From positions 1-36,672 of IMG/VR virus record IMGVR_UViG_3300033233_000099: DNA of 36,672 bases; one strand, given 5' to 3'. Made by a program: the position numbers and the translations under genes. The stretch is from a virus. A model generated the notes under the pieces. The model did no database searches. It was not told where the DNA came from and saw only the letters and a list, made by a program, of their open reading frames with translations. Numbering within the stretch: position 1 is the first letter of the stretch; each line of letters starts with the position of its first letter. Below are positions 3,947 through 16,431 of this stretch, piece by piece.

Positions 3947-4242
3947 GCACCACGAAGCGCGGGCTCGCATTCCGCGTGTCGGACTCGTGGCCGCTCGTCT
4001 GGTCCACCGATCACGCAGAGATCAGGTGGCAGTCCGGCACGGTCCCCGCCGAGGGCGTCAACGGCCACCAGCCCCAGGAGGTCCTCGAGCTCGTCGCCGA
4101 ACGGCTGCGCGAACTCAACGAGACCGTTCCGAGTCGCGAGACCAGCCTGGCGATCACGAACGTCGAGCAGGCGATCCTGTGGCTCGACGAGCGCACGCGC
4201 GATCGCGTGGCGCGTGGCGTCGAAGGGACGCACGAGCGATGA
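3943..4242 (+). CDS. Small phage protein with Acb2/Tad1-type helical hairpin pattern; candidate cyclic-nucleotide sponge
   Basis: 99 aa, overlapping terL by 4 nt and the portal gene by 4 nt. The N-terminal half is beta-like with a GVNG turn (about residues 38-41). The C-terminal half is a helical hairpin carrying RETSLAITNVEQAILWLDER and ends in a GVEGTH tail. I recognise this as a common phage accessory family. The alternating ALT/E-A/W hairpin resembles the C-terminal hairpin shared by Acb2 and Tad1, proteins that sequester CBASS or Thoeris signal nucleotides. That functional link is inference; a structural role linked to the portal cannot be excluded. Confidence 0.55.
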   Translation: MSTTKRGLAFRVSDSWPLVWSTDHAEIRWQSGTVPAEGVNGHQPQEVLELVAERLRELNETVPSRETSLAITNVEQAILWLDERTRDRVARGVEGTHER

Positions 4243-6074
4243 CGGTCGCGACTCGCCCGCCCATGACCGAGCGTCTCCGCGCCGCGGTTGCGGCCCTCCG
4301 AGGCGATGACCTCGCGAAGGCCTCGCGAGCTGCGCAGGCTGTCTCGACGACCGGCCTGGCCGATCTGGCGGCCCAGCTCGTGGCGGGCAATCAGGTCGTC
4401 CCCTTCGGCCCCGGGGCGCCGATCGCGCCGGCGCTGCCCGAGGAGGAGGAACCACGGCGCTGGGACTACCCGGTCGGGTTCAACATCCCGACGGCGCCAC
4501 GGACCTACGAGCCGATCACGTTCACGCTCCTGCGCCAGCTCGCCCGCAACTACGACGTGGCCCAGCTCGCGATCCAGAAGCGGATCGATGGTCTGCGCCG
4601 GCTGCGCTGGGATGTCCGTCCGAAGCCGATCGCAGGGATGACCCGTGCCGAGTCCCGGGCCCGGCGCACTCGCCTTGAGGATGAGGTTGCAGCGGCGAAG
4701 GGGCTGCTCTCAACGCCCGACCAGGAGCATGATTTCGTCGACTGGCTGGCGCGCTGGGTCTACGACCTGTTCACGATCGACGCCGCCACGCTCTACCTGC
4801 GCCCGACCCTTGCCGGGGAGCTCTATGGCCTCGAGGTCATCGACGGGGCGACGATCCGCCCGATCATCGATGGCCACGGCCGTCCGCCGGCCCCGCCGAT
4901 GCCGGCCTACGCCCAGGTGATCAAGGGGATGACTCGCGAGCTGCTCACGGGCGACCAGCTCGTCTATGCCCCCTTCTGGACGCGTGCGGACTCACCCTAC
5001 GGCCACCCGCCGATGGAGTGGATCCTCCTCGCGGTCAACCGGGCCCTCCGCCGCCAGACGATGGACCTCAGCCTCTACACCGAAGGGACGCTGCCGGTCG
5101 CGTTCCTACGCCTCGCGGCCGAGACGCCGATGGGCCAGATCAAGGAGTTGCGCAGCTACCTCGATGAGCTGCTCGCAGGCAACGATGTCACCCGGGCGCG
5201 GGTGATCCCGATCCCGGGCGGGACCGGCACGGGGCTTGACCGGGTGAACCCCGAGCCGACGACCGAGGCCGAGGAATGGCTGATGCACATCACCTGCGCC
5301 GCCTACGGCGTCAGTCCGACCGAGCTCGGCTTCACCCCGAAGGGCTCAGGACTCGGCGGGAAGGGCTTCGCCGAGACGCAGACCGACGCCTCGATTGCGC
5401 GAGACATCGGCCTCGCGAACCACATCGCGGCCAAGCTCAACCGCGTCCTCGCTGCCACGCCGCCCTATGGCCTCGGCAGCCCCGAGCTCGAGTTCTTCTG
5501 GGAGGACCTCGAGAAGCAGGAGGACCGGCTCGCCGAGGCGCAGGCGCTCCAGGTCTACTGGCAGATCGGGGCGACGACCTCGGACTGGATCGCGGAGAAC
5601 GTTCTCGACCAGGATCCCCCGGGCCTCGGACCGGTGATCGCCTACGGGACGACCGTCATGCCCCTCGCCGACTTCCTCGGCGCCCCAGCCGGCGCGGATG
5701 CGGGGCCGCCCCCCGAAGCGCCGAGCGCTGCTCCGGGCGAGGTCACGGCCACCGAGAGCACCGACGAGCCCGTCGTGAAGGCGGCGAGCACCGACCTCGC
5801 GCGCTGGGAACGCAAGGCCCTCCGCGCCCTGCGCGACGGCCGGGACCCGACCCGCTTCGAGTCGTCCGCGATCGCGCCGCCCGAGCGGGCCTTCCTGCGC
5901 GACGCGCTCGCGAAGGCGGGCACGGCCGACGATGTGCGCGCCGCGTTCGAGCTCCTGAAAGCTGGTGGATCCGCCCGCCCTTTACCCGGGCAGCGCTCCG
6001 CAACCGGCTCCGGGCGCTCTACCGGGCCTGGTTCCGACGGCAGGGCCGAGCGGTGGCTGACGCGATGGGCGTGA
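4239..6074 (+). CDS. Portal protein (zero-frame product)
   Basis: 611 aa from an ATG in an ATGA overlap. After a variable N-terminal arm, the core begins near residue 85 with the portal-typical TFTLLRQLARNYDVAQLAI and continues through tunnel-loop and stem-like segments to about residue 480. A Pro/Ala linker is followed by a helical extension (residues about 500-580). The dodecameric portal is the DNA entry gate of the capsid. The last 30-odd codons in this frame (Gly/Ser/Arg-rich, with rare codons such as TTA) look like out-of-frame translation. The coding signal moves to the -1 frame at the slippery site at 5978, so a longer portal-MuF fusion is probably made as well. Confidence 0.9.
   Translation: MTVATRPPMTERLRAAVAALRGDDLAKASRAAQAVSTTGLADLAAQLVAGNQVVPFGPGAPIAPALPEEEEPRRWDYPVGFNIPTAPRTYEPITFTLLRQLARNYDVAQLAIQKRIDGLRRLRWDVRPKPIAGMTRAESRARRTRLEDEVAAAKGLLSTPDQEHDFVDWLARWVYDLFTIDAATLYLRPTLAGELYGLEVIDGATIRPIIDGHGRPPAPPMPAYAQVIKGMTRELLTGDQLVYAPFWTRADSPYGHPPMEWILLAVNRALRRQTMDLSLYTEGTLPVAFLRLAAETPMGQIKELRSYLDELLAGNDVTRARVIPIPGGTGTGLDRVNPEPTTEAEEWLMHITCAAYGVSPTELGFTPKGSGLGGKGFAETQTDASIARDIGLANHIAAKLNRVLAATPPYGLGSPELEFFWEDLEKQEDRLAEAQALQVYWQIGATTSDWIAENVLDQDPPGLGPVIAYGTTVMPLADFLGAPAGADAGPPPEAPSAAPGEVTATESTDEPVVKAASTDLARWERKALRALRDGRDPTRFESSAIAPPERAFLRDALAKAGTADDVRAAFELLKAGGSARPLPGQRSATGSGRSTGPGSDGRAERWLTRWA
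5978..6018 (+). promoter_or_regulatory. Programmed -1 frameshift signal: CCCTTTA plus downstream hairpin
   Basis: The heptamer C CCT TTA occupies 5978-5984 and is in the canonical X XXY YYZ phase of the portal frame (codons CGC CCT TTA). TTA is a very rare codon in this window. After a 7-nt spacer, AGCGC at 5992-5996 pairs with GCGCT at 6014-6018, and CCG at 5998-6000 pairs with CGG at 6011-6013, with one bulged T. Slippage by -1 continues in the frame of the MuF protein, where GC-rich third positions and a helical Arg-rich sequence start at once. The predicted fusion is 582 portal residues plus 232 MuF residues (814 aa). Confidence 0.65.
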
Positions 6075-6682
6075 TCGCGAAGGCCGCCCTCGAAAGCGGC
6101 ACGCTCGACCGCTACCCGTGGGGCGCTGACATCATCGCCCTCGTCGAGCCGACGGCGGAACTGCTCGCCCTCGCCCGGGCCCTCGGCTACCGCGAGGCGT
6201 TCCGGGGCGACCTCCGGACCGGCTTCGATGTGGCGAATGCGCGCGCCGCGGACTGGGCACGCAGCCGAGCCGGCGAGCTCGTCGCCGAGATCGACGGGGT
6301 CACCCGCGATCGCGTCGAGACGCTCCTGCGTGGCCTCCTGGGCGACGCCTTCGACAACCCCGACGTCTCCGCGGCCGACATCCGCTCGGCGCTCCTGGGC
6401 GAGTTCGACCAGATGAGCGTATCCCGGGCCGACCTGATCGCCGACACCGAGATCGCGACTGCCGCCGGCAAGGGCGCCGCCGACGCGTTCGCCGATACCG
6501 GCGTGGCGGCCGTTCTGATCAGCGACGGCACCGAGTCCGACGAGGCGTGCGCCGAGGCCGACGGCCAGGTCTGGTCAGTCGAGTACTACGCCGCGAACGT
6601 GCTTGAGCACCCCAACTGCGGCCGGTCGGCCACACCCCTCTCCGAGGGGGAGTATGACCCGGCCGAGGTGATCGACGGATGA
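6053..6682 (+). CDS. MuF/SPP1 gp7-like minor head protein
   Basis: If independently initiated, it is 209 aa from the GTG at 6053, or 205 aa from the ATG at 6065. Coding potential in this frame extends upstream to about 5980, where no start codon exists, which favours expression as the -1 frameshift extension of the portal. The C-terminal third carries the MuF signature: SRADLIADTE, then ISDGTESDEAC and LEHPNCGR, with Cys and His spacing of the family. MuF proteins bind the portal inside the prohead and can be ejected with DNA. Here no extra toxin or ADP-ribosyltransferase domain follows. Confidence 0.75.
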   Translation: MADAMGVIAKAALESGTLDRYPWGADIIALVEPTAELLALARALGYREAFRGDLRTGFDVANARAADWARSRAGELVAEIDGVTRDRVETLLRGLLGDAFDNPDVSAADIRSALLGEFDQMSVSRADLIADTEIATAAGKGAADAFADTGVAAVLISDGTESDEACAEADGQVWSVEYYAANVLEHPNCGRSATPLSEGEYDPAEVIDG

Positions 6683-6695
6683 ACGAGGTGACCCG

Positions 6696-8276
6696 ATGAC
6701 AGATCCGATCCGACCGACCGTGACCCTGTTCGGCCCATTCGAGAAGGTGGCCAAGCAGCCAGATGGATCGATCCTCGTGGACTTCACGGTGACGACCGAG
6801 GCCGTGGACGATCAGGGGGAGATCGTCGACTACGACGCGGTCAAGAAGGCCGCTGCTGACTACATGCAGTGGGCGGCGCTGCGCGAGATGCATCAGCCCT
6901 CGGCGGTTGGCACGACGCTCGAACTCCAGACCGACGACGCGACCAGGAAGATCACCGGGCAGGGTCACGTCGTGGACCCGATCGCGGTCCTCAAGGTCGA
7001 GAGCGGCGTCTACAAGGGCGTGTCGATGGGCGGCCGAAAGCTCGCCGTCCAGATGCAGAAGATCGGCGGCAAGTCGGTCCGCAGGATCACCGATCTGGCA
7101 TGGACGGAGCTGTCGCTTGTCGATCGGCCATCGAACCCCGACGCGTCTCTGACGCTCGCGAAGCGCTCCGAGGAGGACCTCATGGGTACTGACACGACCA
7201 CCGCGGCTCCCGAGGCCGGGATCGACACCTACACCGGGCCCGATGGAGCACTCCTGGCCAAGGCCTCCGACGGTCCGCCCGAGGGCGGCGTCGATCGCGA
7301 GGACATCCCGGCCGAGGACTTCGCCGGCAAGGACAAGAGCTTCCCGATCGTCACGCCATCGAGCGTCTCCGACGCTGCCGCCTCGATCGGACGTGCCGGC
7401 CCGGACAACTACTCGACCGACGAGCTCCGGCGACGGATCATCGCGATCGCGCGCCGCAAGGGGCCTGAGTTCGTCGCCAAGCTCCCGGAGGCCTGGCAGA
7501 GCGATGAGGACGCGGCCAAGGCGACCAGGACGGGCGACCTGCACAAGAGCGCGGCAGATGACGTCGCCCACGCGACGATGGTCCTCAACTGCATCAACGA
7601 GCTGATCGAGTCCGAGGCGGCCGAGGGCGAGACGGACGACGTCGCGTTTCTCCAGGGCGCGCGGGCCGCGCTCCTCGCCTTCATCAGCTCGGAGTCCGAC
7701 GAGGTCGGAACCCCCGAGGATGTCGCCGCGGCCGAAGCCGAGAAGGTCGCCGGGGATGTCGGCGCGCCGATGGCCGAGGAGGTCGCCGTGCCGATGGCGT
7801 ACAGCTCGCAGGGCGGCGATCTCGCCGCCTCGACCATGCCCGATCGGACCGCGATCGAGGCGATCGTCGAGGAGGTCCTCGCGAAGCGCGCCAGGGCAAC
7901 CCCAGAGCCCACGACATCGGAGGAACCGCCGGCGACCAGCGTCGACGAGCTCCTCGCCAAGACCACCAGGCTCATCGAAGGCCAGTTCGGTCGGTTCGCC
8001 ACACGCGCGGACGTCGACGCGATGAAGGCGGAGATCCTCGAGGCGGTGAAGCCCGTTCAGGAGGACCTCGCAAAGATCGCGCGGATGCCGGCGCCCGGTG
8101 GACCGCTCCGGTTCGCACTCGATGGCGACCGCTTCGCCGACGAGGCGAAGTCGCCCTCGACCGAGGCGGAGGTCCTCGCCAAGGCGGCTCGTCGGGAGGG
8201 CATCGACCCGCACGTGCGGGAGGAGCTCGGCCGGCTCGCCGCCGCGGCCCAGATCGCCGCCGAGAGGGGGCGCTAG
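6696..8276 (+). CDS. Prohead protease fused to scaffold-like domain (XkdF-like)
   Basis: 526 aa with a GAGGTG ribosome binding site. The N-terminal ~150 residues match the XkdF-like serine protease family: His66 in EMHQPS, Ser110 in YKGVSMGG and the closing SLVDRPSNPDA motif. Residues about 190-300 contain a small helical segment (STDELRRRIIAIARRKG). The acidic C-terminal part (about 380-526) has helical and coiled-coil stretches typical of an internal scaffold. The likely role is to guide capsid assembly and then to cleave scaffold and capsid delta segments. Cleavage sites cannot be placed from sequence alone. Confidence 0.75.
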   Translation: MTDPIRPTVTLFGPFEKVAKQPDGSILVDFTVTTEAVDDQGEIVDYDAVKKAAADYMQWAALREMHQPSAVGTTLELQTDDATRKITGQGHVVDPIAVLKVESGVYKGVSMGGRKLAVQMQKIGGKSVRRITDLAWTELSLVDRPSNPDASLTLAKRSEEDLMGTDTTTAAPEAGIDTYTGPDGALLAKASDGPPEGGVDREDIPAEDFAGKDKSFPIVTPSSVSDAAASIGRAGPDNYSTDELRRRIIAIARRKGPEFVAKLPEAWQSDEDAAKATRTGDLHKSAADDVAHATMVLNCINELIESEAAEGETDDVAFLQGARAALLAFISSESDEVGTPEDVAAAEAEKVAGDVGAPMAEEVAVPMAYSSQGGDLAASTMPDRTAIEAIVEEVLAKRARATPEPTTSEEPPATSVDELLAKTTRLIEGQFGRFATRADVDAMKAEILEAVKPVQEDLAKIARMPAPGGPLRFALDGDRFADEAKSPSTEAEVLAKAARREGIDPHVREELGRLAAAAQIAAERGR

Positions 8277-12473: not shown

Positions 12474-13446
12474 CGGGCTGATCGCCCTTACCGGCTGGCA
12501 GGCCGGGCTCGAAACGACCCGGGGGACGCTCGTCGCGGCGACCCGGATCCAGCCGATGACCGCGACGATGCGCTACATCATCGACCGCTACGCTCCCCAG
12601 GAGGACCGGAACAGCTTCGAGGACTTCTACCGCTCGGCCCAGACGAAGGCGCACGTCGAGATCAACGGCGCCGTCGCCTGGGCGACGTTCGAGGACGCGC
12701 CCTGGTTCGCCCAGCTCTTCGTCAAGGGCGGGGTCAGCGGCGTCCTGTCCAACACGACCGTCTACACGTACACGTTCGTCCCGACGCCGGCGGCCGACGA
12801 CCTCAAGACCGCGACGCTCGAAGGGTTTACTGACACCGCGGCCTGGGCGGTTCCGTTCACCGTGGGCAAGAAGCTCGAGGTCACCTACCAGCGTGGCCAG
12901 CCGGTCCAGTTCAACATGGACTTCTGGGGCCAGCGGATGGTTAGCCAGGCGAAGACGCCCGCGCTCAGCCAGCGGCCGACCGAGGACATCACCGACGGCC
13001 TCACGACCGCCTACATCGACACCGCCACGATCGGCACGACGGTCGCGGCGAACGTCCTCGACGGGAAGCTCACGCTCGACAACGCGTGGGAGCCGATCTA
13101 CCCGCTCAACGGGACGCAGTACCCCTCCAAGTTCATCCGCAACCGCCGCCACATCGTCGGCGAGGTGACGATCGAGTTCGACACGACGACCGAGTACGAC
13201 GCGTTCGTCGCCGGGACGGCCCGGAAGATGCGCCTGAAGTCGGTCGGCACGACGATCGCCGGATCGAGCCCGGCGACCCCGAAGTCGATGACCTGGGACT
13301 TCTATACGGCCGGCTGGGACACCTACGACTTCGGCCGCCAGGGCGGCATCTGGACGGCGAAGCTCGCCGGTCGCTCGACCTACGACTCGACGGCCGGGTC
13401 GTCCTGGTCGCTCGTCTGCGTCAACGACCTCTCGACGCTGCCGTGA
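12466..13446 (+). CDS. Major tail protein (tail tube)
   Basis: 326 aa. The N-terminal pattern (LTGWQAGLETTRGTLVAATRIQP) is typical of siphophage tube proteins. It is followed by strand-rich sequence with Thr and aromatic repeats and VTIEFDTTTEYDAF. Its placement directly before the G/GT frameshift pair and the tape measure is the classic order. It polymerises into the hollow tail tube. Confidence 0.75.
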   Translation: MPDGLIALTGWQAGLETTRGTLVAATRIQPMTATMRYIIDRYAPQEDRNSFEDFYRSAQTKAHVEINGAVAWATFEDAPWFAQLFVKGGVSGVLSNTTVYTYTFVPTPAADDLKTATLEGFTDTAAWAVPFTVGKKLEVTYQRGQPVQFNMDFWGQRMVSQAKTPALSQRPTEDITDGLTTAYIDTATIGTTVAANVLDGKLTLDNAWEPIYPLNGTQYPSKFIRNRRHIVGEVTIEFDTTTEYDAFVAGTARKMRLKSVGTTIAGSSPATPKSMTWDFYTAGWDTYDFGRQGGIWTAKLAGRSTYDSTAGSSWSLVCVNDLSTLP

Positions 13447-13925: not shown

Positions 13926-14071
13926 AGGATGCGTGGCTGATGCTGAAGTTCGGCTGGCAGCCCGCCTCGTACCGGGATCTCGACGAGATGCCCGAGCCGG
14001 TCCTCGACTACATCGACGCGATCCAGGGCAAACGCGCTGAGATCGCCCGGATCGAGAAGGGGCGTTCGTAG
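13443..14071 (+). CDS. Tail assembly chaperone GT (-1 frameshift fusion)
   Basis: Predicted 209 aa: 132 residues of G up to the GGC codon at 13836-13838, then 77 residues from 13838 in the -1 frame. The T part reads EADIFRLVSSGV, AWLMLKFGW and YIDAIQGK, a compact helical segment with full GC-rich third positions, whereas the zero frame there looks non-coding. The T part has no convincing start codon of its own near the junction. In lambda and many siphophages the G and GT ratio controls tail assembly. The stop TAG overlaps the GTG of the tape measure gene. Confidence 0.75.
13832..13862 (+). promoter_or_regulatory. Programmed -1 frameshift signal GGGGGGC with hairpin
   Basis: G GGG GGC at 13832-13838 is in X XXY YYZ phase of the G frame (GAG GGG GGC). 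A 9-nt spacer is followed by a 5-bp stem: CCTCC at 13848-13852 with GGAGG at 13858-13862 around GAATG. Continuing in the -1 frame gives the expected T domain. Confidence 0.75.
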
Positions 14072-16431
14072 TGTCGAACGAGGTCCTCGAGCTGATCCTC
14101 CGGGCGCGCGATGAGGCGTCGGCCGGGCTGCGCAACGTCCAGGCCCAGCTCACCGGGATCGCCGAGAAGGCGCGCCTGGGCGAGCGGGCAATGGGCGCGC
14201 TCCACAACGTCCTCACCGGCATCGGCCAGGGCCTCGGGATCGCCGCCTTCTTCAAGTTCGAGGAGGTGATCAGCCGGCTCACGAGCGCGATCCCGGACCT
14301 GATCGGGCAAGGGATGCGTTTCGGAGAGACGGTCCACAACCTGACCGAGATGACCGGGGCCTCGGCCGAAGAGGCGAGCCGGCTCCTGGGAACGCTCGAG
14401 TTCCTCGGCGTGAGCACCGAGGCGCTCGGGATGAGGATGGGGATCCTCAGTCGGAACGTGATCGAGAACGAGGACCTCCTGCGCAAGCTCGGGATCAGCA
14501 TCCGCGACAGCAACGGCCACTTCCTCAACCAGATCGAGATCATGTACCGCCTGCAGGCGGGGCTCTCCGGCGTCCAGGACGGCACCGCGAAGCTGCGAAT
14601 CGAGCAGGCGATCTTCGGCCGCCGGGCCGCGGACATGGCCGAGTTCTTCAATCTGACCGCGACCCAGGCGAAGCTCCTGCGCGCCGAGATGGACCGGCTC
14701 GGGATCACGATGTCCGAGGATGCGACCGCCCAGGCCGAGGCGGCCCGCAAGGAGTTCAACCTGCTCGGCCTTGCCGTCCAGGGCGTCGCAAACCGGCTGA
14801 TCAGCGACGTCGCACCGGCGCTTATCGGTGCCGTCGACGCGATCGCGCGCTGGGTCAGCGAGAACGGCAAGGCGATCGCCGCGTTCGCGGCCAACGTCGT
14901 CAACTTCGTCCTCGGGATGATCACCGCCCTCACCGGCGCCTCGTTCGCGACCGTGACGTTCACGACCGCGCTCGGGCGGATCCCGACGCTCGCCAACGAC
15001 GCCCGCACGAACGTCGATGGCCTGACCGGCGCGACGAGCGCGAACACCGATGCGATCGATCGCAACATCGCCCGGATCGAGAAGCAGATCCAGGCGATCG
15101 AGGCGCGCGACCGAGCCCAGCAGCGGAGCTTCGAGCGCGCGATGAGCCGGCTCCAGGACGAACTCACCAGCCAGCTCGATGCGATCGACGCGGCCGAGAA
15201 GGCACAGTCCGACCTCGAGGCGCAGGCCCGCCTCACCCGGGAGCTGGCAGCGGCCGAGCGCGATCTCGTCGCCGCCCAGCGAAGCGGCGATCCGGCGGCG
15301 ATCGCCGAGGCCCGCCAGCGCGTCGCCGACATCGTCCAGCAGCAGCAGGACGCCCAGATGCGCGCCGCGGACGACGCCCGCCGGGCCCAGATCAGATCGG
15401 TCAAGGACTACGTCTCCGCGATCGAGCGAGCCGAGACCGAGTGGACATCGAAGAAGGGACTGCTCGAACAGCTCAAGAAGGACGAGGCGATCCTGAACAG
15501 CAAGATCGCCGCCGAGAAAGCGCGCGGCGATACGGTGGCGGTCGCCGACGACGAGATCCGCCTCGAGGCCGTGAAGACCGCCGAGGCCCGCGCCCAGGCG
15601 GCGATCCGGAATCAGACCCAGGAGGATGCCCTGGCCAAGGAGAAGTCGCGTCTCGAGGATCTCAAGAAGTCGATCGGGTCGGTCGGCGCCGTGATCAAGG
15701 GACTGATCGCGCCCTGGCTCGATGTCGGCAAGACGGTCGAGGCCACGACTGCCGCGGGCCGCAACGACATGCGCCACTTCGGCGAGTCGATCGATGGCCC
15801 GGGCGGCCTTGTCGGCTCGCTCGATGCCGCGCGAGCAGCCGGACTCAGGTTCGGTGCGGACATGCGCAAGACGTTCGAGGGGCTGATCGCGATGGTCGAG
15901 AAGCTCCAGGTCTCGATGCGCGACTTCGGGCGTGCGGCCGAGGCGATCATCGTGGGGATCACGACCAAGCTCGCCGGTCTACCGGGCTTCCTCGTGACCG
16001 GGCTCGCCGGTGACACTCCGACCCCCAAGGGGGCCGGGCAGAAGGACATCGACTTCCTGAAGCGCCAGCCGCCCAACGAGCCCTACGACTTCGCCCGGTT
16101 CGGGACGTATGGCGGGGTCCTCCACCAGGGGATGACGAACGCGCAGGCCGTCGAGGCGCTCGTGGCCGCCGGGTTCGGGTACATCACCCACCGGGCCGAG
16201 GGCGGCTGGGTCGGCCTCTACGGGCCCGAGCTCGTCCGCGCCGGCGAGCGCGGGCCCGAGCGGATCGTCCGCGCCGAGGACATGCCCCACGGCGGCAGGC
16301 TCGCCGGTGGCTTCTCGGGGACGATCAAGATCTACCTCGACGGTCGCGAGATCCGCGGCATGGTCAGCCGCATCCTCTTCGAGGAGGAGCGCGCCTATGC
16401 CGGGCCCGCCCGCGCCGGGTCGGCCTTCTGA
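14071..16431 (+). CDS. Tail tape measure protein
   Basis: 786 aa from a GTG overlapping the GT stop. Residues 1-60 are helical (ARDEASAGLRNVQAQL), with hydrophobic membrane-like helices around residues 50-80 and 265-300. A long charged coiled coil, rich in Gln, Ala and Glu, spans about 330-540. The C-terminus has the GGWVGLYGPELVRAGERGPE pattern commonly seen at tape measure ends. It sets tail length; at roughly 0.15 nm per residue this implies a tail near 118 nm, an estimate from a general rule. No lytic transglycosylase motif was found in it. Confidence 0.85.
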   Translation: MSNEVLELILRARDEASAGLRNVQAQLTGIAEKARLGERAMGALHNVLTGIGQGLGIAAFFKFEEVISRLTSAIPDLIGQGMRFGETVHNLTEMTGASAEEASRLLGTLEFLGVSTEALGMRMGILSRNVIENEDLLRKLGISIRDSNGHFLNQIEIMYRLQAGLSGVQDGTAKLRIEQAIFGRRAADMAEFFNLTATQAKLLRAEMDRLGITMSEDATAQAEAARKEFNLLGLAVQGVANRLISDVAPALIGAVDAIARWVSENGKAIAAFAANVVNFVLGMITALTGASFATVTFTTALGRIPTLANDARTNVDGLTGATSANTDAIDRNIARIEKQIQAIEARDRAQQRSFERAMSRLQDELTSQLDAIDAAEKAQSDLEAQARLTRELAAAERDLVAAQRSGDPAAIAEARQRVADIVQQQQDAQMRAADDARRAQIRSVKDYVSAIERAETEWTSKKGLLEQLKKDEAILNSKIAAEKARGDTVAVADDEIRLEAVKTAEARAQAAIRNQTQEDALAKEKSRLEDLKKSIGSVGAVIKGLIAPWLDVGKTVEATTAAGRNDMRHFGESIDGPGGLVGSLDAARAAGLRFGADMRKTFEGLIAMVEKLQVSMRDFGRAAEAIIVGITTKLAGLPGFLVTGLAGDTPTPKGAGQKDIDFLKRQPPNEPYDFARFGTYGGVLHQGMTNAQAVEALVAAGFGYITHRAEGGWVGLYGPELVRAGERGPERIVRAEDMPHGGRLAGGFSGTIKIYLDGREIRGMVSRILFEEERAYAGPARAGSAF

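Follow-up and report, generated by a model that had tools for sequence, protein, structure and literature searches.

A probable programmed -1 frameshift joining portal and MuF at a slippery heptamer in an IMG/VR viral sequence, with comparable heptamers at the portal-MuF junctions of many relatives

The stretch of DNA analysed here, referred to as the window, covers positions 1 to 36,672 (36,672 nt) of the IMG/VR virus record IMGVR_UViG_3300033233_000099; at the junction between its portal gene and a MuF domain encoded in another frame, the following features are found:

4239..6074, plus strand: portal gene in the zero frame (core and C-terminal helical segment), 611 aa, from ATG 4239 to TGA 6072-6074
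5964..5967, plus strand: GGTG, a possible weak Shine-Dalgarno-like stimulator, 10 nt 5' of the heptamer
5978..5984, plus strand: slippery heptamer C CCT TTA (CCCTTTA), in the X_XXY_YYZ phase of the portal frame
5984..6682, plus strand: MuF domain in the -1 frame, 232 aa, with the first post-slip codon at 5984 and the stop at 6680-6682
5992..6018, plus strand: predicted hairpin 3' of the heptamer (5992-5998 with 6012-6018), no better than chance
6053..6073, plus strand: competing start codons inside the MuF ORF, GTG 6053, ATG 6065 and GTG 6071, the last overlapping the portal stop

The product of the zero-frame gene is identified as a phage portal by its profile match to phrog_2662 (E 2.8e-39), PF04860 reaching 35.6 bits, under its curated cut-off of 39.1. 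The ORF carrying the MuF domain, open from stop to stop over 5240-6679 in the -1 frame relative to the portal, matches phrog_595, phrog_2468 and phrog_4728, together with the C-terminal part of phrog_2662 (PHROG head-morphogenesis). No Pfam match to PF04233 (MuF / SPP1 gp7-like) was obtained for the window MuF itself, and its homologue in the relative L013 scores 21.4 bits against this family, under the cut-off of 29.6; a profile of the window's MuF group aligns with the MuF of L061 (hhalign 97.6%, E 2.6e-12), which in turn matches PF04233 at E 3.7e-17. Profile homology and the position after the portal thus join the window MuF, as a predicted member, to the PF04233 proteins. The AlphaFold model of MuF (mean pLDDT 70.6) gave no significant match in the PDB; the N-terminal helix encoded from 5984 is predicted with low confidence, and is similar in relatives.

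The heptamer lies as a previous sequence-only reading of this DNA had placed it, in the X XXY YYZ phase of the portal frame, where it reads C CCT TTA; its TTA, which that reading had called a rare codon, is used for none of the 59 leucines encoded upstream in the portal gene, and CCT (0/51 Pro) and TTT (0/14 Phe) are equally absent 5' of the site. The passage of coding character from the portal frame to the -1 frame, claimed to take place at the same position, was recovered in GC3 (60-nt bins), which leaves frame 0 for frame -1 within 5940-6060. It also holds that the -1 frame contains no start codon between the heptamer and 6053, the first being GTG 6053; upstream of the heptamer, the nearest start in the -1 ORF is 702 nt away, and a sequence scan detected no Shine-Dalgarno match of at least 4 bases before GTG 6053, ATG 6065 or GTG 6071. 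By arithmetic, a slip at the heptamer would give a fusion of 582 + 232 = 814 aa. Both strands taken together, the 36.7 kb window has 7 sites of the form XXXYYYZ with YYY = AAA or TTT; a GGGTTTA at 12823-12829 precedes the likely tape measure gene (14071-16428) by about 1.2 kb.

Relatives were collected from five productive scans of viral contigs and genomes, three of which contributed the best 80 of 289, the best 80 of 81 and the best 80 of 589 relatives; with five named phages and the window itself, the set amounts to 307 loci and holds some contigs twice. The MuF ORF alone (viral scan) and the window portal alone (genome scan) found no relatives, and alignments were used in their place. The MuF profile first built by iteration strayed into portal sequence, and a core-only profile replaced it; two named relatives, L009 and L011, in which the strayed profile had shown no MuF, count as fusions under the core-only one. 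By frame relation, the 307 loci comprise 100 in-frame fusions, 62 -1 overlaps, 16 with a separate MuF, 3 +1 overlaps, 106 with no MuF detected and 20 truncated by the contig end. Removal of near-copies by shared 16-mers (L057 stays, although close to L055) left 235 distinct loci: 81 in-frame fusions, 42 -1 overlaps, 8 with a separate MuF, 3 +1 overlaps, 86 with no MuF detected and 15 contig-truncated, these last being left out of the counts. All five loci of the separate class with MuF in the -1 frame were dropped as copies, L015-L017 and L098 of the contig-truncated L014 and L243 of L194; L243 (a MAG; 6407-7660) has the A10 junction of L194, but a break in its MuF frame precedes the MuF domain. 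The in-frame portal-MuF fusion is the commonest arrangement among the relatives (81 distinct), and all five named phages have it; only L009 among them carries a heptamer in the junction window, while in L007 and L008 a CCCAAAA lies farther upstream. L008 (Mufasa8, NC_049478; 2134-5136) is annotated as a MutT/NUDIX hydrolase, its ORF holding portal and MuF matches, and a Nudix-like segment can be seen by eye in the related L007. The frameshift-type loci come from IMG/VR contigs and two MAGs.

An in-phase XXXYYYZ heptamer (YYY = AAA or TTT) is present in 37 of the 42 distinct -1 portal/MuF overlaps; the one nearest MuF is AAAAAAG in 14 loci, AAAAAAA in 6, CCCTTTA in 5, GGGAAAA in 5, TTTTTTC in 3, AAAAAAC in 2, and CCCTTTC and CCCTTTT in 1 each, whereas hetero heptamers (X different from Y) are absent from the two remaining phases of the overlap at all 42 loci. 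In the final 200 nt of the portal ORF, an in-phase heptamer is found in 38/42 -1 overlaps (38 and not 37 because the two counts searched slightly different stretches) versus 8/86 loci without detected MuF, 0/8 with a separate MuF and 0/3 +1 overlaps. The three +1 overlaps are L005, L060 and L262; L005 has a CCCTTTC in another phase. Among the 86 loci without detected MuF, L278 (Rhodoblastus acidophilus DSM 142; 6491-6521 onward) has in-phase CCCAAAA and GGGTTTA near the portal end and is the only one whose -1 frame stays open, for about 127 codons past it. In 35/37 loci the 200 nt upstream of the heptamer hold no start codon of the -1 ORF; downstream, 60 nt or more separate the heptamer from the first ATG in 36/37 and from the first ATG, GTG or TTG in 26/37, the other 11 having a start within 60 nt (GTG or TTG; ATG in one). 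The -1 relation is by itself no evidence, because ATGA-type overlaps are also -1; five -1 overlaps lack an in-phase heptamer (L051, L074, L138, L152 and L183) and were kept in the count as exceptions; they mostly have a short overlap or a start at the portal stop, and Shine-Dalgarno matches are seen in L138 (GGAGG, alongside an out-of-phase AAAAAAG) and L152 (AGGAG). As regards the heptamers themselves, the parts of a study in E. coli available to us place V_VV.A_AA.R and H_HH.U_UU.Y among the most efficient shift motifs, and C_CC.U_UU.A and A_AA.A_AA.C among the motifs chosen for shifting above 0.10% without stimulators (PMC4066793); every heptamer type of the family is covered by a motif or rule called shift-prone in those parts, which fits a role in slippage.

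The proposal that the heptamer should be kept in related phages was followed up in the group closest to the window, and CCCTTTA was found identical and in phase in L013, L018, L092 and L099, with CCCTTTC in L012 and L093 and CCCTTTT in the more distant L136. Portal identity to L013 is 50% for the window, 47% for L012, 45% for L015 and 42% for L018, so that the same heptamer appears conserved in phase at about 40-50% protein identity, other putative slippery heptamers taking its place in more distant relatives. In the five CCCTTTA genes TTA encodes 0/287 other portal leucines, yet it is present in each heptamer; CCT is rare in the window (0/51), L013 (1/50) and L092 (4/75), but it is not avoided in L018 (11/70) and L099 (13/73), a point against the codon argument. 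The frame in which sequence is conserved was compared over 21 pairs from 7 loci: in the 60 codons upstream of the site the zero frame is best conserved (mean local score 108.5 vs 52.7 for -1 and 63.0 for +1), while in the 24 codons downstream the -1 frame takes a modest lead in gapped alignment (33.4 vs 27.6 and 28.7), the pair L013-L099 lacking this lead. An ungapped anchored comparison downstream gave the -1 frame no advantage (BLOSUM -0.38 vs 0.04), probably because of indels, and local alignment was used in its place.

Two relatives of this group depart from the common arrangement. In L015, MuF has its own separate ORF about 0.9 kb further on and the heptamer is gone, CCCGCTG replacing the CCCTTTA of L099, with which the DNA after the heptamer position aligns closely. 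In L012 the MuF body starts about 2 kb downstream, at an ATG preceded by GGAGGAGG, without the N-terminal helix; an in-phase CCCTTTC is still followed, in the -1 frame, by the codons of the lost helix and then by a stop, so that in this contig (6755-9785) about 2 kb with other ORFs splits an orphan MuF N-terminal stretch from the rest of MuF. The portals of L002, L004 and L015 contain, by eye, a ParB-like segment before the conserved helical tail of the C-terminal region.

Of the elements that might stimulate a slip, the hairpin at 5992-6018 pointed out by the sequence-only reading is present in the fold of 5985-6030, but a part as stimulator is not supported: its stability in that fold is not significant (z -1.14, with 22 of 200 shuffles as stable), and two longer fold windows gave other structures with z -0.10 and -0.30. 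Across the 37 frameshift loci, the 50 nt 3' of the heptamer have a mean z of -0.43 vs -0.15 to 0.21 at six other positions, a slight trend which is too weak to support a claim of downstream structure in the family. An upstream Shine-Dalgarno is likewise not supported as a general stimulator, since at least 5 matching bases occur in 4/37 loci with 3.1 expected; GGTG is found 10 nt before the heptamer in 7/8 CCCTTTN loci. The heptamer, with its otherwise unused TTA, may be the main determinant of the slip.

Taken together, a programmed -1 ribosomal frameshift at C_CCT_TTA, from which a 611-aa portal and an 814-aa portal-MuF fusion would result, is very likely, in agreement with what had been claimed for this DNA and now with the comparison with relatives; the support is strong because the heptamer is kept in phase, with other slippery heptamers at this position in more distant relatives, because coding in the -1 frame begins at the heptamer, because usable starts are few and because the heptamer is lost in L015, where MuF is separate. 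According to the proposed mechanism, CCT in the P site and TTA in the A site would re-pair to CCC and TTT; a minority of ribosomes would thereby pass from the portal frame to the MuF frame, most of them ending at 6072-6074, and one start site would give rise to two proteins with their first 582 residues in common. Both proteins may enter the same portal ring, a structure of 12 subunits, and the slip rate would therefore set the number of MuF domains per ring; a fixed MuF copy number on the portal ring is what we infer.

Other origins of the junction have to be weighed against this frameshift. Were the heptamer incidental, ribosomes could reinitiate after termination near the portal stop, at ATG 6065 or GTG 6071, or start at GTG 6053, and so make MuF as a separate protein; the three starts, one of which overlaps the TGA at 6072, are indeed available. 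This is nonetheless improbable, given that no Shine-Dalgarno was found for any of them, that the predicted N-terminal helix from 5984 would be lost, that in L013 the first available start would remove conserved MuF sequence (the YPWG..PTAELLA block), and that the heptamer and its TTA codon are left unexplained. It is quite improbable, too, that a sequencing or assembly indel has split an in-frame portal-MuF fusion: the 81 distinct relatives that are in-frame fusions speak for it, as does phrog_2662, a single protein model spanning both portal and MuF, but the -1 junction with its in-phase heptamer is repeated in L013, L018, L092, L093 and L099, which are well diverged mutually, and independent contigs repeat junctions (L093-L096, L061/L062, L143/L144/L150). 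Errors, moreover, would be expected to yield +1 and -1 junctions in similar numbers, whereas 3 distinct +1 overlaps are observed against 37 -1 overlaps with an in-phase heptamer, and the portal end carries no such heptamer in any of the three.

Transcriptional rather than ribosomal slippage on homopolymers might make the frame change in many relatives, A-runs of 9-10, long enough for RNA polymerase slippage, being present in 21/37 frameshift loci; these 21 loci could reflect transcriptional slippage or, in single cases, homopolymer errors. It is implausible at CCCTTTN and GGGAAAA (12 loci), and less plausible at runs of 6 (4 loci); it therefore does not fit the window, where its probability is almost negligible and where neither transcriptional slippage nor a homopolymer error is plausible.

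One-frame relatives had been named in advance as evidence that would speak against a frameshift, and 81 distinct ones do exist; because 46 of them keep a heptamer in the portal phase at the junction, in the roughly 190-275 nt that precede the MuF domain, they fit a two-product scheme better than they refute it. When synonymous codons are resampled from each gene's own usage, 7.4 such cases are expected instead of the 46 observed, 3.0 instead of 16 for hetero heptamers alone, and 1.8 instead of 20 among the 45 fusion genes above 60% GC, the rows being related and hence not independent trials; fourteen control windows elsewhere in the same ORFs total 39 heptamers vs 39.6 expected. In the other two phases, heptamers are found in the junction window of 29/81 and 14/81 fusions because long A-runs fit several phases, the hetero ones being mostly in phase. 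The distance from site to MuF resembles that in frameshift loci, and a -1 slip in a fusion would meet a stop 2-55 codons on, with a portal without MuF as the predicted product; a truncation tuned by a near stop was rejected, as the next -1 stop lies at chance distance (mean rank 0.50, n=46). Isolate genomes with an in-frame junction heptamer include Chromobacterium haemolyticum (L240), Limnobacter litoralis (L246), Trinickia mobilis (L249), Alkanindiges illinoisensis DSM 15370 (L254), Acinetobacter soli (L255) and Methylobacterium terricola (L270), the L254 locus being a prophage region; Arthrobacter liuii (L305) is without one.

Mapping the frameshift label onto a FastTree portal tree of 131 rows, from which a length filter leaves out L018, L099 and L152, takes 18 changes, and starred branches force no fewer than 14 of these; the two arrangements, frameshift and fusion, have therefore replaced one another repeatedly, unless some of the A-run cases are sequence errors. 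A two-product scheme may extend across the family, and we hold it rather more probable than its contrary that the slippery site is a family-wide two-product device whatever the gene arrangement, one which would add MuF where this lies in the -1 frame and release portal from the fusion, lineages having swapped repeatedly between the two while mixed rings were kept.

If true, the addition of MuF to some portal subunits by a frameshift would directly answer the question of how the low copy number of MuF is set; a mixed ring could be reached interchangeably by gene fusion or by ribosomal frameshifting, and it would be suggested that two proteins come from many of the genes annotated as portal-MuF fusions. 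That both products may enter one ring is helped by two points, since SPP1 gp7 is present in about three copies per virion according to the text available of PMC4493119, and its analogue in TP901-1 is predicted, in the portions of the same source and of an SPP1 review at hand, at the inner face of the portal (PMC4493119; PMC6316719).

Comparable devices are known from other genes. The tail assembly chaperones G/GT of lambda-like phages are reportedly produced by a -1 shift, a description attributed to Xu et al. 2004; as in the window, an XXXYYYZ -1 shift near the end of a virion-assembly gene gives a short and an extended protein, but the proteins are tail chaperones there, and portal and MuF of the head here. 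In dnaX (tau/gamma), a -1 slip within the longer ORF leads to the shorter product, which makes it a model for the in-frame relatives, although it is a cellular gene, whereas here the slip would release portal from a fusion.

A portal-to-MuF frameshift was not found described in those parts of the open-access literature that the search covered; in the accessible part of the PRFect paper, MuF is named once, with VIP2 fusion genes (PMC10885494). The nearest case is Brevibacillus phage Emery, whose gp4 is given, in the section of its report at hand, a slippage predicted by FrameD and unverified, from 58.9 to 82.5 kDa, and is called a head morphogenesis protein (PMC4168068). As in the window, the Emery sequence (KC595516), where gp5 is joined from two pieces, has an in-phase heptamer (TTTTTTA at 4718) and a MuF-type sequence in the -1 frame behind the first ORF, which in Emery matches PF04233 (E 3.5e-12); unlike the window, the slippage is described in that section as that of a head morphogenesis protein and not as one from portal to MuF (PMC4168068). 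The first ORF of Emery has weak portal matches (Portal_T4, E 4.8e-4, below the cut-off), and Emery is absent among the tblastn matches listed for the portals of the window, L245 and L141; in this phage (L308, 3171-5350) gp4 looks like a portal by the weak Portal_T4 match and its position after the terminase, MuF being only in the -1 extension.

For the head, a longer minor form of a protein made by a -1 shift is also the rule of the T7 10A/10B type, with the difference that the major capsid protein, and not the portal, is extended; in phage Privateer, whose capsid is of this type, the passage available of PMC7881722 gives two bands, the longer form being detected by mass spectrometry. The Microbacterium phages EA3/EA5/EA8/EB have portal-MuF gene fusions in frame, and the frameshifts named for them, in the part of the source at our disposal, are those of the tail chaperones (PMC7302621); the same two proteins are joined as in the window, with no change of frame, and the same holds for Arthrobacter phage Sonali, an in-frame portal-MuF fusion whose portal is homologous to that of the window.
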